Shown piece after piece: positions 2,094 to 16,502 of a stretch of DNA of 40,753 bases. The first letter of the stretch is position 1. Each line of letters begins with the position of its first letter. The position numbers were made by a program, and so were the translations under genes. The notes under the pieces were generated by a model that saw only the letters and a program-made list of their open reading frames with translations, did not search any database and was not told the DNA's origin. Location: positions 1-40,753 of IMG/VR virus record IMGVR_UViG_3300025864_000029; one strand, 5' to 3'. The stretch is from a virus.

Positions 2094-2257
2094 AAACCAT
2101 TACACTTGCAACCCTTGCGAAGTTATTTGGCGAACCCGAAGAACTGTACGCTTTTCACGAGCGAGTATGTATTAAAGAGGATTCCGGCATACCGCTTGAA
2201 ACGGCTATCGAGCAGACGTTGGACGAGCAGGGGTATGAAACCATGGAGGGGTTTTAA
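2090..2257 (+). CDS. small acidic hypothetical protein
   Basis: This codes for 55 residues starting at the ATG that overlaps the preceding TGA (ATGA) and is preceded by AAGGAATCC. A longer in-frame start at 2042 lies inside the upstream gene and has no binding site. The protein is helical and acidic in its second half. I do not recognise it. Confidence 0.55.
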   Translation: MKTITLATLAKLFGEPEELYAFHERVCIKEDSGIPLETAIEQTLDEQGYETMEGF

Positions 2258-2258
2258 T

Positions 2259-2432
2259 ATGCTTTGGATAATTTGGACATGCGGATGGTTTCTTGCATGT
2301 GGCTTGGAAAGTTATCTTGCAAGTTTAGAAAAGAAATTAACAAGCAATACTCCCAGAGAAGGCTCTGCGGTAATGGGATTTATTTATATGGTCGTCTGGA
2401 TAATCGGCATGATTAATTTTTGGGGGAAATAA
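2259..2432 (+). CDS. two-segment small membrane protein
   Basis: The 57-residue product has a hydrophobic N-terminal segment (residues 1-21, LWIIWTCGWFLACGL) and a second one (residues 37-55), separated by a short polar stretch with KKLTSNTPREG. A strong GGAGGGG at 2245-2251 fixes the start at 2259, one base after the previous stop. The topology resembles small holin or pinholin-like proteins, but it sits in a regulatory/early-type gene train with no lysis genes nearby, so the role remains open. Confidence 0.55.
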   Translation: MLWIIWTCGWFLACGLESYLASLEKKLTSNTPREGSAVMGFIYMVVWIIGMINFWGK

Positions 2433-2602
2433 TGGTTATCGTCAAACTCTACAAGTGCAATAGCGTCCATAACTGTGGCGACTGCGTACATGCCACTCCG
2501 CATCCGAAAACTGATTCATGCGCTTTTGACATGTGCATATACAGAGGAAGGGTATGTGATACGGAATGTAAGGTGGTAAAAGTGAAGGGTAAGCGTAAAT
2601 GA
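2432..2602 (+). CDS. Cys-rich small protein
   Basis: This 56-residue protein has seven cysteines (CNSVHNCGDC, then C...C, then CDTEC), which suggests metal binding or a compact zinc-knuckle fold. The ATG overlaps the upstream TAA (TAATG) and is preceded by GGGGGAAA. A TTG four codons earlier is possible but less likely. The C-terminus is basic (KVKGKRK). No family is recognised. Confidence 0.58.
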   Translation: MVIVKLYKCNSVHNCGDCVHATPHPKTDSCAFDMCIYRGRVCDTECKVVKVKGKRK

Positions 2603-2850
2603 AGCATTGTAAAATATGCAAGCAGTCGCACGATAAGGACGGGAAGCCGTTGAAGTTCTACTTCGGCGCAAAAGCGTGTATCCCGTGCGTGAAAGCCTAT
2701 CAGAAGGAAAGGCATAAGCAGGAGAAGGAGATGGTTGCGAATCACCCCCTAAAGCATTTAAGTCAGCAGGAGATTGCTAGGCGGTGGAATGAGAAACACA
2801 GGAGCAAGGTTACGGAAGTGAAAGAAAAACATGGGGAGAAGGTGAAATGA
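2599..2850 (+). CDS. zinc-ribbon-like small basic protein
   Basis: The 83-residue product begins MKHCKIC and has a second CIPC pair at residues 32-35. This CxxC-x(n)-CxxC arrangement fits a zinc ribbon as in the N-terminus of HNH-type or phage zinc-finger proteins. The rest is a highly charged helix (residues 36-83) with no visible HNH catalytic motif. It starts in an ATGA overlap with the previous gene. It may bind nucleic acid, but this is inference. Confidence 0.6.
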   Translation: MKHCKICKQSHDKDGKPLKFYFGAKACIPCVKAYQKERHKQEKEMVANHPLKHLSQQEIARRWNEKHRSKVTEVKEKHGEKVK

Positions 2851-2984
2851 AAGCGAAAAAACCGAAAAAGAATATTAAGAAAACAGTTGCGGAAAATAAA
2901 ATTCGCAGAGTTATTTATCCATCCATATTCGCATGGGTTGATGACAAAGACGTGGTTCACATGAAAGTTGAATTTACAATATGA
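2847..2984 (+). CDS. 45-residue basic hypothetical protein
   Basis: A short frame fills the gap exactly between two neighbours. It starts at 2847 in an ATGA overlap with the upstream stop (GGGGAGAAGGTGAA in front) and ends in an ATGA overlap with the YopX-like gene at 2981. The N-terminus is very Lys-rich (MKAKKPKKNIKK), and the C-terminal half has beta-strand character. The double overlap is the main support for it being real. Function is unknown. Confidence 0.55.
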   Translation: MKAKKPKKNIKKTVAENKIRRVIYPSIFAWVDDKDVVHMKVEFTI

Positions 2985-3382
2985 GAAAATTCAGAGTATA
3001 TGATGAAATTCAAAAACGGTATTATGATACAAACCATGACTATCTTGAACCTTTTTTAAATCAAAACGGTGAACTTTTATTTTTAGATTGGAAAGCGAAT
3101 AATGGTTGTTCTTTTATTCCGAATCAAAATAATAAAAATTATATCGTTGAATTTTCTTCGGGTTTCATTGTCAAAGGCAAAGAGGTATTTCAAGGCGATA
3201 AAGTTAAACACTCTTGCGTTTATCATGGAGAAAATTGGACACTTGAGGGGAATGTATTTCAAAATGATTCAGGAATATGGGTAATTCTTTTTAAGAATGG
3301 CAATGAGGTAGGGTTATGGGATGAAATTTACAATAAAGAATGCTGTATCGAGGTTATCGGTACAATACATGAGGGGCAATAA
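2981..3382 (+). CDS. YopX-family phage protein
   Basis: The 133-residue product has the typical YopX layout. It opens MRKFRVYDEIQKRYY, has a central G-x-E-x-F-x-GD segment (residues 66-73), then a W/F-rich strand region, and closes with IEVIGTIHEGQ. YopX proteins are common in phages and conjugative elements and their function is not established. It is coupled by ATGA overlap to the small gene upstream. No catalytic residues are known for the family. Confidence 0.78.
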   Translation: MRKFRVYDEIQKRYYDTNHDYLEPFLNQNGELLFLDWKANNGCSFIPNQNNKNYIVEFSSGFIVKGKEVFQGDKVKHSCVYHGENWTLEGNVFQNDSGIWVILFKNGNEVGLWDEIYNKECCIEVIGTIHEGQ

Positions 3383-3383
3383 T

Positions 3384-3626
3384 ATGAGTGAAAAAATAAT
3401 AAAATGGAAGCGATACGATGGTATTCAGATGAAAAGTTTTCAGCGTGGCTTTGAGGATAGAGCCGAAGATAACAAGAAATATCAAGACTTGAAAGAGAAA
3501 ATCAGCAAATACTTTAAAGACAGGGAAAATATTGGCATGGGTGTGCCTATGGGCATGAAATGTCCAGCAGTTAGGTACAAGTTATCGCCATATCAATGGG
3601 GTTTAATATCGAGGTATATGAAATGA
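3384..3626 (+). CDS. hypothetical protein
   Basis: This codes for 80 residues starting at the ATG at 3384, just after the preceding stop and 7 bp after GAGGGG. The sequence is charged and helical in the middle (residues 20-47), with a Gly/Met-rich turn (IGMGVPMGMK) and an aromatic C-terminus. No family is recognised. The stop overlaps the next start (ATGA). Confidence 0.58.
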   Translation: MSEKIIKWKRYDGIQMKSFQRGFEDRAEDNKKYQDLKEKISKYFKDRENIGMGVPMGMKCPAVRYKLSPYQWGLISRYMK

Positions 3627-3823
3627 GTAAACTTAATCCCGCACAGGAAATAGTCTTAAAAGATTTACGGGATGCTATTCAATCAGCTATCCGAAAAGTT
3701 GAGTTAAAATACCTTAAACCTATGGCGGAAGGCGAGTATGTTATTAACGGTGCGATAGTTGGCATTCCGTCTGTAATTATCGAATACGGTGGCGAAAAAC
3801 ATATTTATCCAGTGCATATATAA
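3623..3823 (+). CDS. small hypothetical protein
   Basis: The 66-residue product starts at 3623 in an ATGA overlap with the upstream gene. GAGGT sits at 3611-3615. The N-terminal half is helical, and the C-terminal half has short strands (GEYVINGAIVGIPSVIIEYGGEKHIYPV). It is not recognised and has no obvious catalytic or binding motif. Confidence 0.55.
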   Translation: MSKLNPAQEIVLKDLRDAIQSAIRKVELKYLKPMAEGEYVINGAIVGIPSVIIEYGGEKHIYPVHI

Positions 3824-3832
3824 AGGAGTGAA

Positions 3833-4192
3833 ATGATATTCATAACAAGCGTTAAAGACAAATGCAAGGATATAGCCAAGGAATATTATATATCCAACGC
3901 AATAGATATAAAAGGTAATCTAACTTCACCATTCGCACCTAGTGATTACGATATTTCATGCAAACGTGCAGTATATGAGAAATTACTTGCATTAAATGGC
4001 AAAGGAACACCCGAACAAATTAAAGAGATAACTGGCAATGCTTTTTTAACCAATTTGCGATGTGATATTTGCGAAAAATCAGTAGAGCGTGTCGCTGAAT
4101 ATGGCTGTGGAGAAGATATGCAGATATGCGAAGGCTGTTTAAGGGATGCATTAGAACAGATTGAATTATCAAAGGAGCTAGATAGCAAATGA
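3833..4192 (+). CDS. hypothetical protein with C-terminal zinc-binding motif
   Basis: This 119-residue protein follows a clear AAAGGAGTG. The N-terminal part contains the segment FAPSDYDISCKRAVYEKLLALNGKGTPEQIKEITGN, resembling helical zinc-finger-associated regions in phage proteins. Residues 78-102 have CDIC and a later CEGC separated by about 20 residues, fitting one zinc site. The role may be nucleic-acid or protein binding. Its stop overlaps the next gene by ATGA. Confidence 0.62.
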   Translation: MIFITSVKDKCKDIAKEYYISNAIDIKGNLTSPFAPSDYDISCKRAVYEKLLALNGKGTPEQIKEITGNAFLTNLRCDICEKSVERVAEYGCGEDMQICEGCLRDALEQIELSKELDSK

Positions 4193-4857
4193 GTAGCATC
4201 TTAACCCATCCCGACCAAGTTTATTACGATCCTGCAAAAAAACTGGTCAAACTTTTTTGGAACGAGAAGATAGACCATGCGCTTGCACCTGTAAACGGTG
4301 CGGAATACTACCTTCGTGCCGGTATAGCCTTTCCTGCGCTTACTGAATCGGGTGGACTTGGTTCGCCTCGTGACGTTACAGGGTTTGCCGTTATGGTAGC
4401 CTACTGCTTCGCCAACCGCAAGTATTACGTCTTTGGCGAATGCGAGTTTGAAACTATAGACCATGTGCTGAATCAGGATGACAACGGCATAGCGATACAG
4501 GGTGCTTGCAGTTTCTTCAATAAGATGTGGACTACTTACTTCTGCGATTCGTATTACTGGTCGGGTCACTCGGAAACGGTGCAGAAGTATATCTTGCAGT
4601 CGCTCCGTTCGCCTTCAATTCAGCCGAAGCCTCACTTCATCGAGATTTCCCCCGGCGTACCCGGTCAGCAACAGCAGGCGGTCTATGAACTGCTACAGCG
4701 TAGTGCAATCCATTGGAAGAAGGCTGGCAAGGTACATGAGGGGTTTCAGATGTACGATGCTAGGAATATGCAGAATGCCCCGTGCGCTGTGAAGGCTATG
4801 ATGGACTGTTTGACTGGAATGCTTCGGTTTCCGTATAAAAAGCCAATAGAGGAGTGA
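4189..4857 (+). CDS. portal-adjacent protein, function unassigned
   Basis: The 222-residue product begins MSSILTHPDQVYYDPAKKL. It is aromatic-rich, with alternating strands and helices in the middle (about residues 60-105, VTGFAVMVAYCFANRKYYVFGE) and a helical C-terminus. Because it lies just before the portal gene I considered a terminase subunit or packaging factor. It lacks a Walker A motif, and I cannot place the three acidic residues of a terminase nuclease with confidence. It is a single-domain-sized protein, coupled to the upstream zinc-motif gene by ATGA. The best description is a conserved-looking packaging-region protein of unknown function. Confidence 0.66.
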   Translation: MSSILTHPDQVYYDPAKKLVKLFWNEKIDHALAPVNGAEYYLRAGIAFPALTESGGLGSPRDVTGFAVMVAYCFANRKYYVFGECEFETIDHVLNQDDNGIAIQGACSFFNKMWTTYFCDSYYWSGHSETVQKYILQSLRSPSIQPKPHFIEISPGVPGQQQQAVYELLQRSAIHWKKAGKVHEGFQMYDARNMQNAPCAVKAMMDCLTGMLRFPYKKPIEE

Positions 4858-4861
4858 TAAC

Positions 4862-5062
4862 ATGATACAATCCTGCATAATCCATTTTGACGACGGAAGT
4901 AAGGCTATTTTTAAGGGTGAACCTGTATTCGTGGTAGGCGACAAAAGAAAAGTGGTTAAAATCCAATTCAGTGAATTGGCATATCTACCGAAAGGTAAAG
5001 AGCTTTCTTTGGAAAACTTGAAACCTTATCCCGATAAGATAAAATCTGCAAAAGTGAAATAA
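4862..5062 (+). CDS. small hypothetical protein
   Basis: The 66-residue product follows GGAGTGATAAC with the start four bases after the upstream stop. It looks beta-rich (SCIIHFDDGSKAIFKGEPVFVVG), possibly a small barrel, with a basic C-terminus (KIKSAKVK). It is the last gene before the first long gap and the structural module. No family is recognised. Confidence 0.58.
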   Translation: MIQSCIIHFDDGSKAIFKGEPVFVVGDKRKVVKIQFSELAYLPKGKELSLENLKPYPDKIKSAKVK

Positions 5063-5067
5063 TCTTC

Positions 5068-5131
5068 TTGCTTTCCTTCTATTCCGTACTATATTGTTAA
5101 AAATTTAACTTTATAAGCCACGGAGCTTGCT
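5068..5131 (+). promoter_or_regulatory. putative promoter and palindrome site A before portal
   Basis: The 69-bp gap before the portal holds TTGCTT (5068-5073), a 16-bp spacer and TATATT (5090-5095), followed directly by the inverted repeat GTTAAAAATTTAAC (5096-5109). That repeat is a one-mismatch version of the exact palindrome found at three later sites. A TATAAG lies just downstream (5112-5117). The portal ribosome site ACGGAG follows. Repetition of the palindrome in front of structural genes suggests an operator or a phage-specific promoter element. Confidence 0.55.
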
Positions 5132-7279
5132 ATGGCAAAGAAAACTGCGAAGAATACCAAAAATACTGCACACAATGAACAGTTAGAAGGAACCGATAGT
5201 TTAGGTGGATACATAGCCAATACTTTATATAGTAAATGGCGCAATAATCGTAAAGAACTTGATGAACAGTGGAATAAAAATATTTCTGCATTTCGTTCCG
5301 AGGACTTCGACAGTCCGTGGAAAGAGGGTGAAGCAGGAAACGATGGCGAGGATTGGCGTTCAAAGACCTGCATCAACATAGTCCGTAACAAGTGCATGAG
5401 TTCTTTTGCAGTTGTAATAGACCAACTTCTACAGGGTGGTAAGATACCCTATATGCTTAAAGCGGTTCACGACCCTTCCATGGTACAGATGCCCCCTGAA
5501 GCGATTGAGCAGGAAACGCTTGCGACAAAGATGAATTACGACTACATGGAGGAGCAGATACGCTTATCCAAGTCGGAAGATGAACTTATCAAAGCCGTTA
5601 AAATTGGCTCTATATATGGAGAAGTGTATGGCAAGCGGTATGTCCACAAAACCACCCGTAATTTCTACGAGAAGGACACTGACGAAAAACCGCTTGTAAT
5701 GAACAAGCCTTTTACCAAATCCGGCAAGGTTCCCAAAGAAACCACTCGCACTTTGAAAAGTTTAGGCATCAAGGCTATTACCCCTTGGGATATTTTTAGG
5801 GATATGGAAACCGACAATCTCCGTGAAGGATTCGGGATAATCCATAGGACATTCACTTCACCGCATAAGCTCCGTTCAAAAAAAGGTAGGGCATTCTATC
5901 TTGACAAGTATATTGACACCGTTTCTGATTCCGCAGAAAAATATCCCTACTTGCAGAATAAGTACACGGCAAACAGTGAAGATACCACTACTGTTACACC
6001 TGCACGTCGTTTGACTATAAACAAACTAAATACTCTTGAACAGCTTGAATACTACGGCAAAGCACCGAAAGAGTTTGTCGAGAAATTTGAGAAGATGGTT
6101 AAAAGCGACGGCATGGAAGTCGGTAATATTGCAGATGAGGATGGAGAACAGGGTGAACTCATTGAAATTATGGCGGTAGTCATCAACAGTTACGTTGTCA
6201 AGTATGCACGTACAAGTCCAGAGGACAGACCTTTCTACCGTGTGCCATGGGAAGTGAAAATAGACTCACTTGGTGCGATAGGCATAGCTGACAATATTAT
6301 GGGCTTACAGACTTCTTTAAACGGTGCAATCCGTGCATTCGAGGATAATAAGAAACTTGCCGGAAATGTCATACTTGCACTTAAAGAACGGTTGATAGCC
6401 AGTAAAATCAAATCATTTAGACCCGGAATGCGGGTTCAACTTGCAGAGGAATGCAAGTCGGCAAATGAAGCTATCCAACAGATAAAAATTGACGATGTTG
6501 CCGATGGTTATTTACCGCTTATTGCCAAATTTGAGCAGTATGCCGATGAAATGTCGCTTATCCCGAAAATATCGCAGGGGATAACGCAGAAGGACGCACA
6601 GACGGCATACGAAATCAGCGTACAGGCGCAGTCGTCTGGCAAATATCTCGGCGCAATCATCAAACACTACGACAAATACTGGATTGAGCCGTATATCACC
6701 GATATGTACGAGCAGAATATGCGTGATCCCGATGCGCCTGTTCCGAAAAGCAATTATACTATCAAGGCACTCGGTTTCTCATCATTCCAAGACCGTATTG
6801 TTCGCTTAGGTAAACTGCAACAGTTCTTCGCACTTGTAATCCAGTATCCGCAGATGCTTGATATGGTTAATCTGGAGTGGCTTATCAGCGAAATGGCAAA
6901 GGCGTTCGACCTTGACCCCGATCAACTCCTGCTACCGCTTGAACAGCGCAATCAACGTAAGAAACAGGCTGATGAAATGAATCAGATGATGCAACAGATG
7001 CAGATAAAAATGCAACAGCTTGACCTTCAAATGAAAGAAGTGGAAATACAGGCTACGCAGATGAAGGCTGAAGCCACTATGATTAAGGCTAAGTCAGGTG
7101 AAGCCAAGGTGCAAGTGGATGCACAGGAAAAAGAGCATGGAATGATGATAAATGAGCATTCTGCAAAAATGGCTGAAAATCAGCAGGCAATAGACCAACA
7201 GCAGTCACAGCAGGAAATGCAGATGCAGGCGCAACAGCAAGCACCGCAACAGGGAAACCCCGACATGGTTCAAGTGTAA
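5132..7279 (+). CDS. portal protein (podovirus-type)
   Basis: The 715-residue product has the size and layout of large portal proteins that form the dodecameric DNA channel at one capsid vertex. An N-terminal helical part (ANTLYSKWRNNRKELDEQWNKN) is followed by a long mixed core and a helical C-terminus. The final ~110 residues are a Gln/Met-rich coiled coil (MNQMMQQMQIKMQQLD onward) ending in a disordered Gln-rich tail, as in P22-like and other podovirus portals. It is followed by the scaffold and major capsid genes. ACGGAG lies upstream of the start. The portal assignment rests on length, tail composition and gene order. Confidence 0.85.
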   Translation: MAKKTAKNTKNTAHNEQLEGTDSLGGYIANTLYSKWRNNRKELDEQWNKNISAFRSEDFDSPWKEGEAGNDGEDWRSKTCINIVRNKCMSSFAVVIDQLLQGGKIPYMLKAVHDPSMVQMPPEAIEQETLATKMNYDYMEEQIRLSKSEDELIKAVKIGSIYGEVYGKRYVHKTTRNFYEKDTDEKPLVMNKPFTKSGKVPKETTRTLKSLGIKAITPWDIFRDMETDNLREGFGIIHRTFTSPHKLRSKKGRAFYLDKYIDTVSDSAEKYPYLQNKYTANSEDTTTVTPARRLTINKLNTLEQLEYYGKAPKEFVEKFEKMVKSDGMEVGNIADEDGEQGELIEIMAVVINSYVVKYARTSPEDRPFYRVPWEVKIDSLGAIGIADNIMGLQTSLNGAIRAFEDNKKLAGNVILALKERLIASKIKSFRPGMRVQLAEECKSANEAIQQIKIDDVADGYLPLIAKFEQYADEMSLIPKISQGITQKDAQTAYEISVQAQSSGKYLGAIIKHYDKYWIEPYITDMYEQNMRDPDAPVPKSNYTIKALGFSSFQDRIVRLGKLQQFFALVIQYPQMLDMVNLEWLISEMAKAFDLDPDQLLLPLEQRNQRKKQADEMNQMMQQMQIKMQQLDLQMKEVEIQATQMKAEATMIKAKSGEAKVQVDAQEKEHGMMINEHSAKMAENQQAIDQQQSQQEMQMQAQQQAPQQGNPDMVQV

Positions 7280-7280
7280 T

Positions 7281-7308
7281 TTGACTTTTAATTTTCAACG
7301 TGTATAAT
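7281..7308 (+). promoter_or_regulatory. sigma70-like promoter after portal
   Basis: TTGACT (7281-7286) and a perfect TATAAT (7303-7308) are separated by 16 bp. Transcription would begin near 7315, at the left edge of palindrome B. This is one of the two best promoter matches in the window and would drive the capsid module. Confidence 0.72.
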
Positions 7309-7312
7309 ATGG

Positions 7313-7330
7313 ATGTTAAATATTTAACAT
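7313..7330 (+). promoter_or_regulatory. palindrome site B (perfect 18-bp inverted repeat)
   Basis: ATGTTAAATATTTAACAT is a perfect palindrome whose core, GTTAAATATTTAAC, recurs at 9538 and 16088. It covers the expected transcription start of the promoter at 7281-7308. A second -10-like TAATAT lies 3 bp downstream. It is a likely operator for a dimeric regulator, phage- or host-encoded. Confidence 0.65.
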
Positions 7331-7367
7331 TTAATATGTATGGCTAGTGTCAGTATAAACAGAACAA

Positions 7368-7404
7368 CGGGGAACCCCCGAAGCGATTGGTGAAAACCCA
7401 ATGC
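7368..7404 (+). other. two leader-RNA hairpins, one with a GAAA tetraloop
   Basis: In the leader after promoter B, CGGGG/CCCCG (7368-7380) forms a short GC-rich stem. Directly after it, GCGATTGGT-GAAA-ACCCAATGC (7383-7404) forms a bulged stem closed by a GNRA tetraloop. No T-run follows, so these are not terminators. They could protect the mRNA or mark processing sites. The GGTGAAAACC unit recurs at 8210-8219. Confidence 0.5.
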
Positions 7405-7425
7405 CTACATTATATAAAAGAGCTA

Positions 7426-7683
7426 ATGAACATTCAAGAATATGATTTGCAGTCGCATGAGATAGTCGCTTTGGCAAGAGCTAGCGAAATTGACTGTGCG
7501 AAAGTCATAATGAAGATAATAACGACTAAGAGAAACCGGCTCCGCATATTACATGAGGGGCGACCACCTGAAGAAGTGAACGCTCAAGTGGCGGTTGCTG
7601 AAACGGCACAGCTTAATATGCTTAATCAGCTTATTGAGTTGCCGGATTTGGCAAAACAGTTCATAAAATCAACAGAGGAGTAA
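7426..7683 (+). CDS. small helical head-module protein
   Basis: The 85-residue product (start ATG 7426, weak AAAGAG upstream) is almost entirely helical and Ala/Leu/Ile-rich. TTG and GTG starts at 7387 and 7390 would add 12-13 residues, but they lie inside the tetraloop hairpin. Position between portal and decoration/scaffold genes suggests a minor head or packaging helper protein. I do not recognise a family. Confidence 0.6.
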   Translation: MNIQEYDLQSHEIVALARASEIDCAKVIMKIITTKRNRLRILHEGRPPEEVNAQVAVAETAQLNMLNQLIELPDLAKQFIKSTEE

Positions 7684-7688
7684 CGGCG

Positions 7689-8186
7689 ATGAATAAATTC
7701 GGGAATCCCAGCGTGTTTCATGCAGATGTAAGGTGCGAGGCTAACGCAGTTCTCGCAGGTGCGACCAACATTACAGGCAGTCTTACGATTGTAGGCAGTT
7801 CGGTCATCAAGAAAATTGTGAAAACTGTAGGCGTTGCATCATTCACAGACGGCGGTTCAACCTCTGGAACGTATGCGCTGACAGATGCTATTCCAATCGG
7901 TGCGACTGTTCTTTGCTCCAAAGTCCGTGAAGTGACTGGATTTGCAGGGGATACTACCGCCGTAATGACAATTGGTGACGGCTCGGATGCAGACCGTTAC
8001 AATACAAGCACAATCAATGTGTTTACAACTGCCGCTAATGGAGTCGCCACAGGCGTTCCGTCCGGCGTACAGTATCACGACACAGCCAAGTATCCGACTC
8101 TTACGGTTACAGGCGGAGCCGATTTCACATCCATTAAAAGTAATGGACTCGGTTCGGTCACAGTTGAAATTGACTACATAGCATAA
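7689..8186 (+). CDS. candidate capsid decoration/head-fibre protein
   Basis: This 165-residue protein is Thr/Gly/Ala/Val-rich and beta-structured (ITGSLTIVGSS, TVLCSKVREVTGFAGDTTAVMTIGDG), ending VTVEIDYIA. Low charge, absence of long helices and location between portal and scaffold favour a surface decoration or head-fibre protein forming beta-sandwich trimers. The residues 40-165 pattern of paired strands with Asp/Gly turns is typical of such proteins. AACAGAGGAGTAACGGCG precedes the start. It could also be a small tail protein, but gene order argues for the head. Confidence 0.6.
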   Translation: MNKFGNPSVFHADVRCEANAVLAGATNITGSLTIVGSSVIKKIVKTVGVASFTDGGSTSGTYALTDAIPIGATVLCSKVREVTGFAGDTTAVMTIGDGSDADRYNTSTINVFTTAANGVATGVPSGVQYHDTAKYPTLTVTGGADFTSIKSNGLGSVTVEIDYIA

Positions 8187-8293
8187 GGATGCATGAGCGA
8201 TAATTTGGTGGTGAAAACCTGACGTATAAATTACAGTCAAATTGGCGAGTAGCCACCGATTTTTACAAACAATAAAACAGGAGAGCATACAAA
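8187..8293 (+). promoter_or_regulatory. structured leader before scaffold gene
   Basis: This 107-bp gap can fold. TTGGTGG (8205-8211) can pair with CCACCGA (8253-8259), enclosing a GGT-GAAA-ACC tetraloop hairpin (8210-8219) and TGAC/GTCA. An alternative local hairpin is TGGC-GAGTA-GCCA (8243-8255). A T5 run follows at 8260-8264, so a weak or conditional terminator is possible. GCGAT followed by TTGGTG and GTGAAAACC is shared with the leader at 7383-7398. Confidence 0.45.
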
Positions 8294-9331
8294 ATGCCTA
8301 TAGATGAAACAGTTGACAAAGGACAGACCGCAGGAGCAACCGCTTCCGACACCACTACAATCACCCCTACCAATGCAGAGCAGGTCGTAAAGGAACAAAC
8401 TGCTTACGATGATGCCTTCGCACCCGAAAAACCAGTTAGCAAAGGAACCGATAAAAGCAAAGACGTTGTTATTCCCAAACCTAAATCTACAACTATAAAG
8501 GGCAAGAAAAATGAACCTGTTAAAAAGACTGCTGACGTGGTTGCTGACGACGTGGACGATAAAACTGATAAAGTCATTGCAGATGCCGACAAAGACAAAA
8601 CAACCGAGAAAACCGCACAGCAGAAACTACAGGACAGGGCAGACAAAGCCGAAGGCAAACAGACTGCCGATGAAATCGCAAAAGTGCAAGCCGATAAAGT
8701 CAAAGCTGATGCACAGGCAAAAGTAGAAGCGGATAAGGTCGCACAGGAAAAAGCGAAGGAAGTCAAACCTCCGTTTAAACTCACTCCTGAAATCTCTAAA
8801 GAGTTTCACGATGATTTGGCTAATGACCCTGATATGAAGCAGTTTGCAAGCGATTATCCTGATGAATTTAAGGTTATCACTACTGCAATGATGAAGGGTG
8901 CTACCAAAGTATTTGAGAAAATGGGAATGGGTGGTGCTACTGCTCCTACTGGTGATTTTGTCAGTAAACAGGAAATACAGGATATTCGAGGCGAACTTGC
9001 ACATTACAAATTCATGCAGGATGTTTCACGCAAGCATCCAGACGTGCAGGAAATAACAGGTTCTAAGGAATGGAACGAGTGGATTGACAAACAGCCGAAT
9101 GGTGTTAAGAAACTTGCAAGTTCCAATGATGCTGATGATGCAGGATATGTCCTTGATGCCTACAAGGAAGCCACAGGTAAACTTTCCGCACAGCAGGAAG
9201 TTGAGAAGGCTCGTGCTACCAAGGCGAAAAAAGATGCCCTGCTTGAAGATGACGATGGTGCAGGTTCCGACAATTCAACCACTAAAACAGGTGAGGACAA
9301 AAATGATTTCGGAGCAGGATTCGACGAATAA
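8294..9331 (+). CDS. capsid scaffolding protein
   Basis: The 345-residue product is highly charged and low in aromatic residues in its first half (Lys/Asp/Ala-rich helical repeats, residues 40-155). A folded helical part follows (residues 158-300, including HPDVQEITGSKEWNEWIDKQ) and then an acidic tail. This is the composition of phage scaffold proteins, which co-assemble with the capsid protein and exit before DNA packaging. It lies directly upstream of the Com-like and major capsid genes, the usual scaffold position. GGAGAG precedes the ATG. No protease domain is visible. Confidence 0.78.
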   Translation: MPIDETVDKGQTAGATASDTTTITPTNAEQVVKEQTAYDDAFAPEKPVSKGTDKSKDVVIPKPKSTTIKGKKNEPVKKTADVVADDVDDKTDKVIADADKDKTTEKTAQQKLQDRADKAEGKQTADEIAKVQADKVKADAQAKVEADKVAQEKAKEVKPPFKLTPEISKEFHDDLANDPDMKQFASDYPDEFKVITTAMMKGATKVFEKMGMGGATAPTGDFVSKQEIQDIRGELAHYKFMQDVSRKHPDVQEITGSKEWNEWIDKQPNGVKKLASSNDADDAGYVLDAYKEATGKLSAQQEVEKARATKAKKDALLEDDDGAGSDNSTTKTGEDKNDFGAGFDE

Positions 9332-9515
9332 ACGTAACCATATACCTATGGTAAACGATTCCAAGTTCAAAGATTCCGCTATTACGGTTGACATGGGCGG
9401 TGAAATACGCTGTCCATGTAACCGCTTGCTTATGAAAGGTACTTTGGCAAAAGGAAGTGCCTTTGAAATCAAGTGTCCGAAATGCAGGGAAAAATATAAG
9501 TTTAAAATTATTTGA
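9303..9515 (+). CDS. Com-like zinc-ribbon protein
   Basis: The 70-residue product ends with GEIRCPCNRLLMKGTLAKG followed by FEIKCPKCREKYKF. This is the paired-cysteine ribbon (C37, C39, C58, C61) of the Mu Com family, zinc-binding RNA-binding proteins known from Mu, where Com promotes mom translation. I chose the ATG at 9303 because AGGTGAGG precedes it; it overlaps the scaffold gene by 29 bp in another frame. An ATG at 9348 has no binding site. Placed between scaffold and capsid genes, it might regulate translation of capsid mRNA, but that is inference. Confidence 0.72.
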   Translation: MISEQDSTNKRNHIPMVNDSKFKDSAITVDMGGEIRCPCNRLLMKGTLAKGSAFEIKCPKCREKYKFKII

Positions 9516-9535
9516 AAATATTTTTATTTTATCAC

Positions 9536-9564
9536 TTGTTAAATATTTAACATTAGTGTATATT
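9536..9564 (+). promoter_or_regulatory. putative promoter with palindrome site C before capsid gene
   Basis: The exact GTTAAATATTTAAC core (9538-9551, 16-bp perfect palindrome 9537-9552) overlaps a possible -35 TTGTTA (9536-9541), with TATATT 17 bp later (9559-9564). This lies in the 135-bp gap before the major capsid gene, where an extra promoter makes sense for a highly expressed protein. Confidence 0.6.
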
Positions 9565-9586
9565 GTAATGAATTAGAGAAGAAACG

Positions 9587-9617
9587 AGTACGCCGAAGTC
9601 CATCGAGACTCTGTACT
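9587..9617 (+). other. leader hairpin before major capsid gene
   Basis: AGTAC (9587-9591) pairs with GTACT (9613-9617), and AGTC (9597-9600) pairs with GACT (9607-9610) around a CATCGA loop. This gives a two-tier hairpin in the 5' leader. No T-run follows. It may stabilise the capsid mRNA or be a target of the Com-like protein. Confidence 0.45.
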
Positions 9618-9650
9618 GGAAAATATAAAACCAATACAGGAGTAACGACG

Positions 9651-10667
9651 ATGGCAATGACGACTTATGGTAGTATTTCTGGTGGAACCGCCGGAAAAGC
9701 CGCAAGAAAGATTCTCGACAGAGGTCAGTTCTTGATGGTGGTTGAACGTTTCGGGCAGGTTGACCCGCAACCCCGAAATTCCTCGAAAACCCGTAAATTC
9801 AGAAGGTATGAATCCCTTCTCCGTGCAATGGCTCCGTTGGCTGAAGGTATTCCGCCAGCCGGACAGAAACTCACGTTCTCCGACATTGAATGCACACTTG
9901 AGCAGTTTGGCGACTCTGTTCCCCTTACTGACGTGATTGCCGATACACATGAAGACCCCGTGCTTGACCAGATAATGAAGATTTGCGGTGAACAGATTGC
10001 TGAAACCGTTGAATGCCTTCGTATCAACTTCCTCAAAGCCGGAACCAACGTGTTCTATGCTAGCGGTGTTGCATCAAGGACACTTGTGTCATCTGCACCG
10101 ACCCGTGGCGATTTCCGCAAAATCTACCGTTCGTTCAAACGGATGAAAGCGAAAGAAATCAGCGAGATAATCAAACCCAGCGGTATGATTTCCACTGAAC
10201 CTGTACGTTCAGGTTATTTTGCAATGGGTCACACCGACCTTGATTCCGATATTCGTGGAATAGCAGGGTTCATACCTGCTGAAAATTATTCCAGTGCTGA
10301 TAAGGCGCTTGAAGGTGAAATCGGGACAATCGAAGGTATCCGTATAATCCTTACGGCACTTTTTGAGCCGTGGCTTTCGGCTGGTGCTTCCGGTACGACC
10401 TATCTCGCTGGTGGAGTTGCCGTGACCGGAGCCGCCGCTTGCGACGTATATCCGTTGCTTGTAGTTGCCCGTGATGCGTATGCAATCGTACCCTTGCAGG
10501 GTAAAGAAGCTGTAAAACCTACTGTTATCAATCCCGGAACACCTTCCATCACAGACCCGAACGGTCAGATGGGCGTTGTTTCTTGGCTGACATGGCAGAC
10601 TGGTTGCATCCTGAATCAGAACTGGGTTGCCCGTCTTGAATGCGCCGCAACTGCAAATCCGACGTAA
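9651..10667 (+). CDS. major capsid protein, N4-gp56 type
   Basis: This 338-residue protein forms the icosahedral shell (HK97-fold lineage). Recognition rests on the conserved N4-gp56-type run: KFRRYESL (49-56), LAEGIPP (63-69), QFGDSVPLTD (85-94) and EDPVLDQ (101-107), then a helix with EQIAETVECLRINFLKAG. A beta-rich C-terminal half contains GFIPAENYSS and the final SWLTWQTGCILNQNWVARLE. CAGGAGTAACGACG precedes the start. The gene has its own palindrome/promoter and hairpin leader. Length fits the family (about 300-400). Confidence 0.9.
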   Translation: MAMTTYGSISGGTAGKAARKILDRGQFLMVVERFGQVDPQPRNSSKTRKFRRYESLLRAMAPLAEGIPPAGQKLTFSDIECTLEQFGDSVPLTDVIADTHEDPVLDQIMKICGEQIAETVECLRINFLKAGTNVFYASGVASRTLVSSAPTRGDFRKIYRSFKRMKAKEISEIIKPSGMISTEPVRSGYFAMGHTDLDSDIRGIAGFIPAENYSSADKALEGEIGTIEGIRIILTALFEPWLSAGASGTTYLAGGVAVTGAAACDVYPLLVVARDAYAIVPLQGKEAVKPTVINPGTPSITDPNGQMGVVSWLTWQTGCILNQNWVARLECAATANPT

Positions 10668-10695
10668 TTAATAACAACTAACGCATTTTTCAACA

Positions 10696-10726
10696 AGGAT
10701 AGGTTCAGTTGATTCTGGCTTATCCT
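10696..10726 (+). other. intergenic hairpin after capsid gene
   Basis: AGGATAGG (10696-10703) pairs with CTTATCCT (10719-10726) around a 15-nt loop, with one G-T wobble. It is followed by AATTTAAGGAG rather than a T-run, so it is probably an mRNA-stability or processing element rather than a terminator. Confidence 0.45.
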
Positions 10727-10745
10727 AATTTAAGGAGATAAGACA

Positions 10746-11468
10746 ATGGGTAAACTTGTATCAGGACTGTTTAACGGCACAGGCGCGGCAAATTATGTTT
10801 GCATCGGCTTTGTTCCTGATTTCGTTAAAGTTATAGCTGTCGGAGATACGGCAGGCGCAAATCTTGAATGGAATAGAAATATGAGGCTTGCGGCTGAAAT
10901 CGAAGGTATCCTTGATACCAACGGTGCAACTGCACTTGCCCCTGAAGTGATTACCGCAGGTATTTCACCTTATTATGGTGGCGACCTTATGACTTCCACA
11001 AATCAGACTTCGCTTGCCAATGGCGAAGGTGTCTATCTGTGGAGAGATTCCAGAGACTATCGTGCTTCTTCTTCCGCACTTGTAGGTGCAGGGGATGCGG
11101 TAGGCGGCGATCCGATTGCCAAATTCACAATGGACACAGTTGCTAACCGCACTGGTCATTTCAACGCCGATGTCGTTGGAACTTATATCGGTGCAGGAAG
11201 TAAAATTGTCATCGGTGGACGTGAGTTCATTATAACTGTACTTACAGCCGGAAACGGTATAAGTGCTGACGAAGTTACAATTTCAGCTCCTCTTAGTTCC
11301 GCACCTGCGGTACAGGCTGGCGTTATCGGGTATATCAGCAACAAGTTTGATTATGCTCCGGTTCCAATCGGCAAGTTGACTCCTGCCGGATTCAAACTTA
11401 GCATGACAACTGTTGTGAATGTAAACGACGAACTTCAGATGTTCGTTGCCGGAACTTACGACAACTAA
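10746..11468 (+). CDS. capsid-associated beta-rich protein (decoration candidate)
   Basis: The 240-residue product is Gly/Ala/Val-rich with repeated strand-turn patterns (FVPDFVKVIAVGDTAGANLEW, KIVIGGREFIITVL, KLSMTTVVNVNDELQMFVAGTY). It follows the major capsid gene and precedes a terminator, so it closes the capsid transcript. Such composition and placement suggest a cement or decoration protein. It could instead be a minor capsid subunit. No enzymatic motif is visible. AAGGAGATAAG lies before the start. Confidence 0.6.
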   Translation: MGKLVSGLFNGTGAANYVCIGFVPDFVKVIAVGDTAGANLEWNRNMRLAAEIEGILDTNGATALAPEVITAGISPYYGGDLMTSTNQTSLANGEGVYLWRDSRDYRASSSALVGAGDAVGGDPIAKFTMDTVANRTGHFNADVVGTYIGAGSKIVIGGREFIITVLTAGNGISADEVTISAPLSSAPAVQAGVIGYISNKFDYAPVPIGKLTPAGFKLSMTTVVNVNDELQMFVAGTYDN

Positions 11469-11494
11469 CTTGAAGGATGAAGATTGAGTATCAT

Positions 11495-11525
11495 GCCCCT
11501 GCGATGGCATCAAAGGGGCTTTTTT
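11495..11525 (+). terminator. rho-independent terminator
   Basis: GCCCCT (11495-11500) pairs with AGGGGC (11514-11519), with an inner GAT/ATC pairing in the loop, followed by TTTTTT (11520-11525). It lies 26 bp after the capsid-associated gene and would limit read-through into the neck genes, giving higher capsid mRNA. Confidence 0.82.
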
Positions 11526-11555
11526 AAACAATAAAATAGTAAATGGAGAATCAAG

Positions 11556-12116
11556 ATGAGCCAAGAGCTTGCAAAGGATTCGCTGATTGTCAGCAAAGAT
11601 GGAACCCCGTTCACAACCGAAAGACTCGCAAAACTATCAATTACAGGACGTAGGTTAGACCCGACCAAGTACACTATTGTTGGACATGAAGGTGGTTTTG
11701 CAATTAAACTGATTACCAAGCCGGATGAAATGCCAGTTGAGTTGAAGGATGAGAAGGGCGAAGTAGTTGACTTTGATAAGCCCAAAGAAGCGAATGTAGA
11801 AAAGTTTTTGAGAGTTCGTTTCCATGACAAGAGCAACCCGAATGATACCGACAGTGTGACTCTCGGAGTGAATGGTGAAATACTTATCGCACAGCGCAAC
11901 GAGGAGACAATCATACCTGAACGTTATGCGGAATGTGCGAGACATGCGACTTATCCGGTTTTTAAACAGTTGCCGGGCGAACGCAGGAAAATTACAGGCA
12001 AAGTTATGACATTTCCGTTTGATGTCATAGGAGAAGCTACTAGAGAAGAATATATGGCTTTGAAGAAAGAAGGCACGAAAAAGACACAGGAGGCACTTGA
12101 CCGCGCTTCCTTGTGA
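11556..12116 (+). CDS. head/neck-module hypothetical protein
   Basis: The 186-residue protein contains RVRFHDKSNPNDTDSVTLGV and a later run EETIIPERYAECARHATYPV followed by QLPGERRKI. This is the type of pattern seen in proteins located between capsid and neck genes in N4-gp56-capsid phages. It is mixed alpha/beta with no catalytic motif that I can identify. TGGAGAATCAAG precedes the ATG. It is the first gene after the terminator, so it depends on read-through or an unrecognised promoter. It may be a capsid-completion or head-tail joining protein; this is inference from position. Confidence 0.62.
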   Translation: MSQELAKDSLIVSKDGTPFTTERLAKLSITGRRLDPTKYTIVGHEGGFAIKLITKPDEMPVELKDEKGEVVDFDKPKEANVEKFLRVRFHDKSNPNDTDSVTLGVNGEILIAQRNEETIIPERYAECARHATYPVFKQLPGERRKITGKVMTFPFDVIGEATREEYMALKKEGTKKTQEALDRASL

Positions 12117-12128
12117 TAAGGAGTCGAA

Positions 12129-12740
12129 ATGCTTGAGAACATATCTGACCTTTATGATTTAGAGGGTGATGTACTGCTAGATGTACCCGGATGCCTTTCA
12201 ATTACAATACAACGTGCGTTAACACGGGTTTGCAGGGAATTAATCTACAAGTCAAATATTTGGCAGGAGGACTTGCCAATATTGGATGTTGTACTGAAGC
12301 AGACTGATTATGCGATAAGCATACCCTACAATGCGACTATAAAGAATCTTACCGATATTAAGGTAAAACAGTCAATCGTTCAAGATTTCAACAATCTCCG
12401 TTCTACGCCACAGCGTTATTACGATTACATTCCCGAAAACATACTGCGGTATAAAAGTGAAGCAGTTGCACCACAACAGTCAATGGCACTAGGCATGAGG
12501 CTTTCTGCCATATTAATACCTAATTTTAACAGCAACGCCATTCCAAAGTGGATATTTGAACGATATGCTGAAGGGTTTATTGCAGGAGCGAAAGCGCAGT
12601 TGATGGTTTCACCTAAGAAACCATATAGTAATGGCGATTTGGCAGTATTCAATCAGAATAAGTATAACGAGTTCCTTACACGTGCCTGCAATGATGCCGA
12701 ACGCCGTTTTCAGCCGCAAACCACAAGTATAGGAGCGTGA
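12129..12740 (+). CDS. neck / tail tubular A-like protein
   Basis: The 203-residue product shows the helix-strand pattern of podovirus neck (gp11/TTPA-like) proteins. An N-terminal helix has ITIQRALTRVCRELIYKSNIWQ, a strand region follows (DYAISIPYNATIKNLTDIKV), and the C-terminus has RYAEGFIAGAKAQLMVSPKK before SNGDLAVFNQNKYNEF. That last section (a helix with A-K/R-L, then PxKPY/WSN and a helix) is a familiar neck-protein signature. It probably links the portal to the tail tube. AAGGAGTCGAA precedes the start. Confidence 0.72.
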   Translation: MLENISDLYDLEGDVLLDVPGCLSITIQRALTRVCRELIYKSNIWQEDLPILDVVLKQTDYAISIPYNATIKNLTDIKVKQSIVQDFNNLRSTPQRYYDYIPENILRYKSEAVAPQQSMALGMRLSAILIPNFNSNAIPKWIFERYAEGFIAGAKAQLMVSPKKPYSNGDLAVFNQNKYNEFLTRACNDAERRFQPQTTSIGA

Positions 12741-12744
12741 CACA

Positions 12745-13386
12745 ATGACGCTGTTAGATATTATCACTAATACTCGCAGGCTTATCAAGGATGATAGGGG
12801 TACGCCTCGTTTTGACACCCTTACACTTGTATCATGGTTGAATCTAGGTTTGAATGATTTACGTACCAAGCGACCTGATGCCGGTTTTGACATTAACCAA
12901 AACGGGATAACCTCGTATGTTTTAATAGACGATACTGACGGGTACTATCAGTACACGGATTCAAGCGGTTATCAATATCTTGCCTCCATGCAATTGATTG
13001 AAGGTTGGATTAAAACGACTTATCCCGTCCTTTACATGAAGGCTTCAAGCGCATCAAATATCAATATATTCCCTACTTCTGCCGATAGGACAGCAACTAC
13101 TAATCTCATGGCTCATATAGCAGGGTGCGATACGGCAGGAATTAAAACATTGGCAGCTGATGCCGTAACGCTGGAAGGAACAGTCAGGCTTGCGAAAGCT
13201 GTGACCAGTGGGAACGTTTGGAATATCACGGCAACTGAAGCGAATATACCATGCGACGATACTTTCCATGAACCGCTTATGTATTATGTCGCATCCAAAG
13301 TATACGAACAGGACAGTGACGATACCGCAAATTCCGCACTTGCTGACAAATACTATAAAAAATATTTACAGGGGATACTTTCATGA
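12745..13386 (+). CDS. phage adaptor / head-tail connector protein
   Basis: This 213-residue protein begins with a helical RLIKDDRGTPRFDTLTLVSW and LNLGLNDLRTKRPDA, typical of small phage adaptor (gp6/DUF6682-like) proteins. A central beta-insert follows (residues 60-175), then a C-terminal helical HEPLMYYVASKVYEQDSDD segment. It likely forms an adaptor ring below the portal. Gene order beside the neck protein supports this. GGAGCGTGACACA is upstream, and the stop overlaps the next start (ATGA). Confidence 0.7.
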   Translation: MTLLDIITNTRRLIKDDRGTPRFDTLTLVSWLNLGLNDLRTKRPDAGFDINQNGITSYVLIDDTDGYYQYTDSSGYQYLASMQLIEGWIKTTYPVLYMKASSASNINIFPTSADRTATTNLMAHIAGCDTAGIKTLAADAVTLEGTVRLAKAVTSGNVWNITATEANIPCDDTFHEPLMYYVASKVYEQDSDDTANSALADKYYKKYLQGILS

Positions 13387-14141
13387 GCAGGACAATAAAA
13401 ACATACCTTGCACTTGATTTAGATACGAAAAAGGGTGTATGGACTGGTGCTGAACTAGTCTATGCTACGGTCTGCGATATTTATGTGTCTAATTATGGTT
13501 CTGCAACTGCAACTGATTTAGTGTTGGCTTTACATCACGGCAGTATACAGATTGCCACTTGCACGTTTACAGATAACAGTGATGGGTTTTTCAAGGGGTC
13601 GTTAGACCTTGATACGGTAGCATTGCAAGCCATTATGGAAACCATGGTAGAACCTGCCGATATGAAGTTTGTAGTAACTTTGCACGATACCACCAACGAT
13701 TCATGTTTGCTAGATGATTATGCACAAGTAATGAGTGACCCGTATACAGGTAGGCAGGGTGTGCCAGTATCTGCAAGTGGAGTAAGTGTGGGCGGTTCTA
13801 TAAGCAAAGCGTTATCGGGAACTACGTTTGATGCGCTGACGGTTGTCAGGAGCCACAGTGATTTCGCTCTTTATCCGCAAAACAGCAGTGATGCCACTTT
13901 AATGAGCTATACCGCAGGAATTGCGCTATCGGCTTCCACGGTGGGCGGTCAAAGTATATCTTTTGTTACCTCCGGTATTCTTACAAGCACGTCATGGACT
14001 TGGGCGAGAGGTAAAGTATTTTACACTAGCACTGGTGTACTTACGCAAACTGTACCCACAAGTGGATTCGTGCAATGTGTTGGATTTGCATATAGTGCAA
14101 CCAGCATGACGGTTAAAATTGAAATACCAATAGGAATATAG
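13383..14141 (+). CDS. tail/virion structural protein, beta-rich
   Basis: The 252-residue product has two parts. The N-terminal half is strand-rich (LALDLDTKKGVWTGAELVYA). The C-terminal half (SISKALSGTTFDALTVVR onward) ends with a repeated Thr/Ser/Val-rich fold closing TSMTVKIEIPIGI, a pattern seen in small phage head-fibre or tail proteins. There are no helices of note and few charges. It starts in an ATGA overlap with the adaptor gene. It may be a fibre, decoration or tail component. Confidence 0.6.
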   Translation: MSRTIKTYLALDLDTKKGVWTGAELVYATVCDIYVSNYGSATATDLVLALHHGSIQIATCTFTDNSDGFFKGSLDLDTVALQAIMETMVEPADMKFVVTLHDTTNDSCLLDDYAQVMSDPYTGRQGVPVSASGVSVGGSISKALSGTTFDALTVVRSHSDFALYPQNSSDATLMSYTAGIALSASTVGGQSISFVTSGILTSTSWTWARGKVFYTSTGVLTQTVPTSGFVQCVGFAYSATSMTVKIEIPIGI

Positions 14142-14151
14142 GAGAATAACC

Positions 14152-15666
14152 ATGTCAGCGAAGAAACCCTTATGCTTGTACAATGATGCAATCAAACAAA
14201 TTCAATCCGGCGATGCGCTTGATGTTGAAATTGCAGGAATGAGTTTAGTAAAAGCGGATTCTACTGATTCTACAGCAGGATATTTGAGTGCAAAAGTTGA
14301 CGGCGTTACTATAGAAGTGAACACATCCACGCACACGATGAACGTCAAATCAGACGTATATGATGCGTATGGCGCAACATCTACTCATTCAGCATTGCAG
14401 ACGGGGATTCATGGTATTTCAATAACTGCCGGAAAAGTATTATCGTCCTTGAAAACAATAACCATTACAAGTGCTGATGATACGAGCGTAATCACGTTTC
14501 CTAGTGGAACTAAAACATTGGTTGCTACAGACGGAAATATCACAGGCAGTTCGGGTTCATGCACGGGTAATGCATCAACTGTCACTACCAATGCCAATCT
14601 TACTGGCGAAGTGATTTCTACTGGAAATGCAACTGCGATAACAAATTCAGCAGTACTTGGGAAAGTTATTACGGGATTTACCTCAACTCCCGGACTTGTA
14701 CTTGCTACTGATACCATATTAGGGGCTATTCAAAAACTAAATGGAAATACCGCCGCAAGTGGAAGTGGAACTGTTACGAGCGTAAGCGTAGTTACTGCAA
14801 ATGGTGTAAGTGCGAGTGTTGCTACGGAAACAATAACTCCTGCAATTACAATCATCCTTGACGCCATTACACCATCTACAGTCAACGCTTTAACCCTTGC
14901 CAAAGCCACTACTGGATTCACTATAGCTGGTGGCGATACAAGTAAAACACTTACAGTATCCGATACGGCTTCCATATCAGGCACGAACACAGGCGACAAT
15001 GCGACAAATACACAGTATAGTTCGCTTGTTACAAATGCGACCCATACGAGTGATGCTACGGGTTCAGGCGCATTGACGGTAGTTGCGATTAACGGAACTA
15101 ATCTTGCCGGACTTGCAACAGGTGCATTAATGAATGCTACTACTACTGGCGTTCCTACAGTAATTGAACCTAGCACGTTAGGAAACATACTTACTTCCAC
15201 TGGTACGGCATGGGCAAGCTCTGCTCCTGCGCTAAAAAGGGTACTCCTTGCCTCTTTATTCGCTGTAGATGTTTCTCCTGTCGCATATATGGAGGTTACG
15301 GATTTTACAGTAGCATTGCTTGCTTCAACTCTATATCATTTTAAATATAAATGTATTATTAAAAGTAATGCCGATTACGGAGAGACAGTAAAAATTTTAT
15401 GTTCATCCACGCCTACACGAGGATTCATGAGTGCAGATGTATTAGCTGATAATGGGGCGACATTGGTTCATGATATTACTACTTATTCTAGTGGGTTAAT
15501 TATTGCGACTTCTTTTGGATGGACAATTCCACATGAAGTAATATTCGAGGGGGATATAATGACAAATGGAGCATGCAATTTGACATTTAATATAAAGTCC
15601 GAAAATGCCACCTATCCTGTGGAAATATATGCAGGGTCGTATTTAGAACTAATAAAAGGAACATAA
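14152..15666 (+). CDS. tail fibre protein
   Basis: The 504-residue protein starts KPLCLYNDAIKQIQSGDAL, a common N-terminal attachment segment of phage fibres. It continues with Thr/Ser/Gly-rich beta repeats, including GTVTSVSVVTANGVSASVA (about residues 205-225) and SISGTNTGDNAT. These repeats are typical of trimeric fibre shafts. The last ~130 residues (from about 375) have a different, more aromatic composition and probably form the receptor-binding tip or a trimerisation head. GGAGAATAACC precedes the ATG. The DUF4376-like gene follows, as fibre-associated genes often do. Confidence 0.78.
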   Translation: MSAKKPLCLYNDAIKQIQSGDALDVEIAGMSLVKADSTDSTAGYLSAKVDGVTIEVNTSTHTMNVKSDVYDAYGATSTHSALQTGIHGISITAGKVLSSLKTITITSADDTSVITFPSGTKTLVATDGNITGSSGSCTGNASTVTTNANLTGEVISTGNATAITNSAVLGKVITGFTSTPGLVLATDTILGAIQKLNGNTAASGSGTVTSVSVVTANGVSASVATETITPAITIILDAITPSTVNALTLAKATTGFTIAGGDTSKTLTVSDTASISGTNTGDNATNTQYSSLVTNATHTSDATGSGALTVVAINGTNLAGLATGALMNATTTGVPTVIEPSTLGNILTSTGTAWASSAPALKRVLLASLFAVDVSPVAYMEVTDFTVALLASTLYHFKYKCIIKSNADYGETVKILCSSTPTRGFMSADVLADNGATLVHDITTYSSGLIIATSFGWTIPHEVIFEGDIMTNGACNLTFNIKSENATYPVEIYAGSYLELIKGT

Positions 15667-15667
15667 C

Positions 15668-16054
15668 ATGAATATTCCAATCACAGAACCTGAACACACC
15701 AGATGGCATAAACGCATTGAAGTTGAAGCGAAAACCGCAGAACTTATTTCCGCAGGTTACACTTTTACTTTTGACGGCAAACAATACACGTTTAATACCG
15801 ATGCAGATGCGCTCGGAAAATTATCGGTGGCATACACGGTTGCAGTTGCGTTTCGTGCAAGCGGTACGCCGTATTCACAGCCTATGGTCATGCAGGATTA
15901 TCAGATTGTTACAATGGACAGGGATTCGATAATCAGTACATACGAGGCAATGATAGCATACGGACTTGGGCTATACGGGCAGAATGCTTCAATCCTGCAA
16001 TCATTGGAGAATTTAACTCTTGCGGAGTTACAGGTATTTATTGACCCCAGATAA
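15668..16054 (+). CDS. DUF4376-like fibre-associated protein
   Basis: This 128-residue protein contains RIEVEAKTAELISAGYTFTF followed by DGKQYTFNTDADAL, the start of DUF4376-type domains found in or next to phage tail fibres. The rest is helical (residues 40-128, ending ENLTLAELQVFIDPR). It may act as a fibre assembly factor or small fibre component; the family's function is not established. It begins one base after the fibre gene's stop, with AAAGGAACATAAC upstream. Confidence 0.66.
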   Translation: MNIPITEPEHTRWHKRIEVEAKTAELISAGYTFTFDGKQYTFNTDADALGKLSVAYTVAVAFRASGTPYSQPMVMQDYQIVTMDRDSIISTYEAMIAYGLGLYGQNASILQSLENLTLAELQVFIDPR

Positions 16055-16082
16055 TATTTTGGAGATTAATTTGTAAAAAGAC

Positions 16083-16110
16083 TTGATGTTAAATATTTAA
16101 CATCTATATT
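16083..16110 (+). promoter_or_regulatory. putative promoter with palindrome site D
   Basis: TTGATG (16083-16088) and TATATT (16105-16110) are 16 bp apart. Between and overlapping them lies GATGTTAAATATTTAACATC (16085-16104), a perfect 20-bp palindrome containing the shared core. It sits in the 82-bp gap before the gene at 16137 and probably controls the fibre/membrane gene set downstream. Confidence 0.62.
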
Positions 16111-16136: not shown

Positions 16137-16502
16137 ATGGACACGCATCTTCCGATTTTAACAACGCATGTATTCCGGGCGCAGGAGATAGACGATACCA
16201 CCGCCTATAGTCCTGCCGTAAGCCTAGTCAACGCACAGTCAAATGGATATTTCAGTATACAGTTACTCCTTACGGGTGACGGTACGCTTGCCGACCTGTT
16301 TTATCAGGTTACGATTGACGGTATAAACTTCCTAAAGCCTGTTTCCGCAAGTTCGATAGCGACCACGTTCACCAAGACAAGTGGTACAGGCTCAAACGGC
16401 AGGGATATTATCGCTTTCAATCCTGAACTTGGCGTGGCAATCCGCTTCGGTGCAACCGTATCAGGAACCGCAACACTTTCCGCAATGCTGTGTATGCAGT
16501 AA
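16137..16502 (+). CDS. small beta-rich virion protein
   Basis: The 121-residue product is Ser/Thr/Ala-rich and beta-structured (FSIQLLLTGDGTLADLFYQVTI, AIRFGATVSGTATLSAMLCMQ). It resembles small head or tail decoration proteins that form beta-sandwiches. It is the first gene after palindrome/promoter D and has ACAGGAGTAGAAA upstream. A structural role is suggested by composition and neighbours only. Confidence 0.58.
   Translation: MDTHLPILTTHVFRAQEIDDTTAYSPAVSLVNAQSNGYFSIQLLLTGDGTLADLFYQVTIDGINFLKPVSASSIATTFTKTSGTGSNGRDIIAFNPELGVAIRFGATVSGTATLSAMLCMQ

Follow-up and report, generated by a model that had tools for sequence, protein, structure and literature searches.

Rex-type palindromes ahead of structural genes in a viral genome fragment: candidate operators for a host NAD(H)-sensing repressor

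The window analysed here is a 40,753-base stretch, an IMG/VR virus record that is classed as linear and is probably a fragment. It carries four A/T-rich palindromes, all intergenic and all ahead of blocks of forward-strand genes: the portal gene, the head genes, the major capsid gene and the tail region (Table 1). By their sequence these palindromes are Rex-type operators, which is a statement about the sites rather than proof of membership in a Rex regulon. We propose, with a probability just short of even (about 0.47), that they could be operators for host Rex, a dimeric NAD(H)-sensing repressor, acting on the structural promoters.

Table 1. Palindromic sites in the window, with the neighbouring genes and the strongest predicted promoter.
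Feature	Position	Strand	Description
Site 1	5095..5110	.	TGTTAAAAATTTAACT; 36 bp gap to nearest upstream gene end, portal gene 21 bp downstream
Portal / head-tail connector gene	5132..7279	+	phrog_332 (E 5e-30), phrog_1216 (E 2e-8)
Sigma-70-like promoter, strong (predicted)	7281..7308	+	TTGACT-16-TATAAT, 11/12; just upstream of site 2
Site 2	7313..7330	.	18-bp perfect palindrome ATGTTAAATATTTAACAT; between portal gene and head genes
Site 3	9537..9552	.	16-bp perfect palindrome TGTTAAATATTTAACA; ahead of major capsid gene
Major capsid protein gene	9651..10667	+	phrog_1357 (E 2e-57)
Site 4	16085..16104	.	20-bp perfect palindrome GATGTTAAATATTTAACATC; ahead of gene at 16137
121-aa protein gene	16137..16502	+	unknown family; downstream of site 4, before tail-fibre-assembly-like gene at 16744

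The core of the palindrome, GTTAAATATTTAAC, occurs exactly at 7315-7328, 9538-9551 and 16088-16101 and with one mismatch, as GTTAAAAATTTAAC, at 5096-5109, where the palindrome is broken at two central bases. No further copy at one mismatch or fewer was found in the 40,753-base record. An earlier note on this DNA had reported these four copies, without others, and their extension to perfect palindromes of 16, 18 and 20 bp, and we recovered both. Its statement that the copies lie in the longest gaps does not hold: gaps of 107 (8187-8293), 144, 216 and 235 bp elsewhere contain none. At up to three mismatches, the whole record yields eight matches against 4.4 expected, so the weaker matches are at chance level; a weaker match to the motif, TGTTAAAAAAATCACA, lies at 29755 within the gene for a 2862-aa protein. 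The flanks differ among the four copies, which therefore represent recurrences of a short site rather than of a long repeat. The window gave no megablast match to near phage DNA records, and blastn with a 30-mer around site 4 returned chance-level matches only.

Also encoded in the window are virion structural proteins, an internal virion protein, a RecT-like protein and an exonuclease; no integrase, Rex gene or Rfam family was found in it. Candidate regulators within the window are limited to weak excisionase-like helix-turn-helix proteins. Two such proteins of region 1, encoded at 99-305 and 800-1252, had been put forward as the regulator, and they match, weakly, solely an excisionase/regulator family (E 0.004 and 8e-5), with nothing to link them to the palindrome. 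The 2862-aa protein (26612-35200) has no Pfam or PHROGs match. N4-type hairpin promoters, considered on account of this protein, were rejected because it matches no family and the palindromes are A/T-rich, identical and not N4-like. Separately, a 29-bp stretch, ATAAAA(T/C)CAA(C/T)A(G/C)AGGAGTAACG(G/A)CGATG, recurs with 86% likeness at 7663-7691 and 9625-9653, each time around a gene's start codon, and reads as a shared translation-start region.

Turning to the promoters, a -10/-35-like pair had been claimed next to or around each copy. Only the pair at 7281-7308 stands out, equalled by 2 of 1000 shuffles of its flanks; those at 5096, 9538 and 16088 are equalled by 25-52% of flank shuffles (249-524/1000); the pair at site 1 (TTGCTT at 5068, TATATT at 5090) is the weak one matched by 524. 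Relative to the starts predicted from the best forward-strand sigma-70 pairs, the centres fall at about +0.5 (site 1), +6.5 (site 2), -26.5 (site 3) and -22.5 (site 4), with site 3 covering the predicted -35 element and spacer and site 4 lying inside the predicted spacer. All four sites thus overlap the core promoter as predicted, although only the promoter at 7281-7308 beats chance. This position within the polymerase footprint fits repression better than activation, given the promoters as predicted; an activator reading was dropped since, on correct promoter calls, the sites cover the core promoter instead of standing upstream.

Rex operators (ROP sites) are known in Clostridia, Staphylococcus and other bacteria (PMC8457756, PMC2883068), and the consensus of Clostridia is TTGTTAANNNNTTAACAA (PMC8457756). 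The phage motif, TGTTAA-N4-TTAACA, is the inner part of this consensus, and the phage sites depart from it at the outermost bases. Compared with the Rex repeat TTGT(T/G)AA-N4-TT(A/C)ACAA, sites 2-4 agree at 12 of 12 inner positions and site 1 at 11 of 12. The window sites resemble ROP sites in being TGT(T/G)AA-N4-TT(A/C)ACA palindromes with an A/T-rich centre, placed at promoters, here predicted ones, with one site for each; they differ in lying on a phage ahead of structural genes, rather than ahead of NAD(H) metabolism genes, and in being sequence-predicted.

To approach a plausible host, the capsid protein was sought in bacteria by a peptide-pattern scan of 84,980 species, which gave one confirmed relative, the best, in Lentisphaerae GWF2_45_14. 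Within 388 genomes of its phylum, Verrucomicrobiota, seven capsid relatives were found at 35-61% identity; because this search was limited to Verrucomicrobiota, the result does not imply that such relatives are restricted to the phylum. Some of them sit in chromosomal prophages. In GWF2_45_14, G069 and G115 the capsid contig also bears, in other parts, genes that by eye look like ordinary bacterial ones (for example thymidylate kinase, histidine biosynthesis and tRNA synthetase genes). GWF2_45_14 and G248 have an integrase within a few kb of the capsid gene. Rex is encoded in all seven genomes with a capsid relative, and in the other Verrucomicrobiota genomes checked.

The exact motif occurs in Verrucomicrobiota upstream of ndh (two genomes), gltB (three), AtpI (two) and NuoE/hydrogenase-like genes (three), as well as upstream of phosphotransacetylase (pta) and a flavodiiron protein gene; a further exact copy lies about 540 bp upstream of a NuoF-like gene. 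The 16-mer of site 3, TGTTAAATATTTAACA, is found letter for letter upstream of ndh and atpI. A one-mismatch motif lies directly upstream of rex itself in GWF2_45_14 (G014) and G389, both with capsid relatives, and the rex start of G248 carries GTGAAATATTTCAC, the other Rex form; the remaining rex genes examined, which are the majority, showed no motif within 420 bp upstream. Bacterial copies are also found upstream of non-redox genes (adk, pgl, CorA and a TauE/SafE transporter), several fall inside genes, and the whole GWF2_45_14 genome shows no excess of the motif (12 matches against 10 for the control). No site precedes the capsid gene of the GWF2_45_14 prophage relative itself. On the contig of this prophage relative, two Rex-like sites (TGTTGACATGTTAACA and CGTTAAATATTTAACA, at 1244-1368) lie about 0.3-0.5 kb from a tRNA-His gene, perhaps near the right end of the prophage.

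A matrix was built from bacterial sites alone, 13 of them picked by gene function, and so speaks to whether the motif is the same rather than to whether it belongs to Rex. With it, the phage sites take ranks 1-4 in the window, scoring 26.2, 25.1, 25.0 and 17.5 bits against 11.1 for the match that follows, and random sequence yields 0.017 matches at the score of the fourth phage site. In favour of Rex, the motif is identical to putative Rex sites in a phylum that harbours capsid relatives, and the sites fall within the predicted polymerase footprint, which is typical of repressor sites. Against Rex, the link to Verrucomicrobiota rests on capsid relatives at no more than 61% identity, and arrays of the same palindrome in unrelated phage contigs may point to a phage protein.

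Among phage relatives, the nearest (L006, 81% capsid identity) carries TTGTTAAATTTTTAACA about 122 bp upstream of its capsid gene, a long preserved run within diverged A/T-rich flanks. The site in this capsid gap, the counterpart of site 3, reads TGTTAAATTTTTAACA. Past the portal gene of L006 the promoter, TTGACA...TATAAT, is kept and the palindrome is absent, so that one of the two syntenic sites testable there is missing. For relatives at 57-67% capsid identity, the records searched contain no site at all. No additional near relatives emerged from scans with the portal, exonuclease and 121-aa genes, and those matches that a scan with the 504-aa gene brought up were mostly partial and repeat-like. 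With the site kept in L006 at the capsid gene alone and absent at 57-67% identity, the palindrome system appears by sequence to be young or lineage-specific. The earlier note had held that scatter through coding DNA, or a lack of conservation in related phages, would count against it; there is no such scatter, whereas the more distant relatives do lack the site. Of its interpretation, a specific repeated regulatory site on structural promoters, kept at the capsid gap of L006, survives; the "dedicated" phage regulator from region 1 does not.

Beyond these relatives, exact copies of TGTTAA-N4-TTAACA are numerous in phage contigs unrelated to the window: 13 in L041, 12 in L078 and 8 each in L027 and L116. 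In L041 (IMGVR_UViG_3300033463_001124), 26 sites at one mismatch or fewer lie at 193-10834 of 12.5 kb, often paired 32-35 bp apart and often 90-130 bp ahead of genes, and similar palindrome arrays are seen in L027/L116, L032 and L078. In L027, a long non-coding stretch (7200-7860) holds a second palindrome family, GTTAGT(C/T)AT(G/A)ACTAAC, amid the Rex-like ones. A phage-encoded Rex was looked for and found neither in the window nor in 17 other viral records.

Such arrays in contigs that carry no Rex gene favour an alternative that we regard as plausible but on balance doubtful, namely that the palindromes are operators of a phage-encoded dimeric repressor that shares the Rex half-site and keeps the structural promoters off in lysogeny or early infection. 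Dispersed repressor operators of this kind, as for P1 C1 and the L5 stoperators, serve a phage-encoded regulator, the L5 sites being asymmetric. The window resembles these systems in having several near-identical sites, here four, spread over a phage genome as for one regulator, and differs from them in that no phage regulator gene was found in the fragment, where the weak excisionase-like proteins are the only candidates. The genome is incomplete, so the gene for such a repressor may be missing, and phage repressor-operator pairs diverge fast, so that conservation limited to the nearest relative is usual for them. A phage repressor would, however, make the match to Rex sites of the hosts of related phages a coincidence.

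The palindromes could also act as RNA, as hairpins in 5' leaders or between transcripts that influence mRNA stability or processing, which we consider improbable. Sites 1, 2 and 4 do fold better than shuffled sequence (z -4.0, -4.9 and -7.6), and sites 1 and 2 lie at the 5' end of their transcripts as predicted. Any palindrome folds, however, and the folding energies here are low in magnitude (-2.6 to -7.0 kcal/mol). Site 3 does not differ significantly from shuffles (z -1.6), the predicted starts lie downstream of sites 3 and 4, and the copies share an identical primary sequence that RNA pairing does not need.

Viral contigs contain 102 stretches with the 16-mer; two control palindromes gave 68 and at least 120. 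Single occurrences were rejected as a sign of function because the controls are equally common. That the sites are functionless A/T-rich repeats, arisen by chance or neutrally, would agree with these counts and with the syntenic site lost in L006 but is very improbable, given three exact copies and a fourth, all intergenic, against about 0.017 comparable matches in random sequence, the capsid site retained in L006, and the excess of loci with at least two sites: this motif has 14 such loci among 102, the first control 1 among 68 and the second, among the matches listed for it, 3 among 120, with loci retrieved by a 16-bp word and some sharing a contig.

Returning to host Rex, NAD+ strengthens and NADH weakens DNA binding by Rex, and bound Rex represses (PMC2883068); from this published behaviour, the four promoters would be expected to stay off when NADH is low and to open when it is high. 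Rex bound to TGTTAA-N4-TTAACA, at about -35 to +15, would obstruct RNA polymerase at the promoters of the portal, head, capsid and tail genes as long as NADH stays low. A rise in NADH, for example towards the end of infection or once respiration or fermentation has stalled, would release Rex and allow the structural genes to be transcribed. Replication would multiply the sites and might titrate Rex, tying late expression to genome copy number. Binding, repression, NADH dependence, titration and a host that carries such a Rex are steps that we infer.

A second candidate element lies in the capsid leader: a hairpin of the form GA-[4-bp stem]-C..GA loop at 9597-9610, 40 nt upstream of the start codon. 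Its stem varies on both sides among relatives, with compensatory changes (AGTC/GACT, AGGC/GCCT, GGAC/GTCC, GTGC/GTGC and GGCT/AGCC), and the hairpin lies 34-57 nt upstream of the capsid start in the leaders of L006-L009, L013, L014, L016, L022, L207 and L210. A simple rule detects it in 11 of 18 leaders and not in the other seven, and it has no Rfam match; it is possibly a translational or structural RNA element. Directly upstream of the leader, and overlapping the gene that precedes the capsid gene, 9303-9515 encodes a 70-aa zinc-ribbon protein that resembles Mu Com (PF10122, E 0.0013, below the curated cut-off), and many relatives have similar cysteine-rich reading frames at this place. Mu Com acts on the mom leader. 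A translational switch is therefore a lead to follow.

Host regulators that read metabolic state are known at phage promoters. Host PhoB binds cyanophage promoters and responds to phosphate, as shown by gel shift, and the same report warns that predicted boxes in phages cannot be relied on unless binding is tested (PMC10976474). The window sites are alike in that phage promoters would read a host regulator that senses metabolic state; they are unlike in that the regulator is a proposed repressor, the targets are four structural operons, and the case is known from sequence alone. The mom gene of Mu is controlled by OxyR and Dam (PMC2909390), likewise a host redox regulator on a late phage gene, but there a single gene is controlled by a different protein family in a methylation-dependent manner. 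Rex sites at phage promoters were not described in the literature searched, whose coverage is incomplete.

Somewhat more tentatively than for the operators themselves, we propose that in this lineage, related to Lentisphaeria prophages, virion production may be gated by NADH/NAD+ through host Rex and by copy number through titration, with the other array-bearing phages perhaps having arrived at this independently. If true, one known protein with a simple chemical signal would connect the decision to build virions with the host's energy state, and redox gating of phage development would become directly testable.
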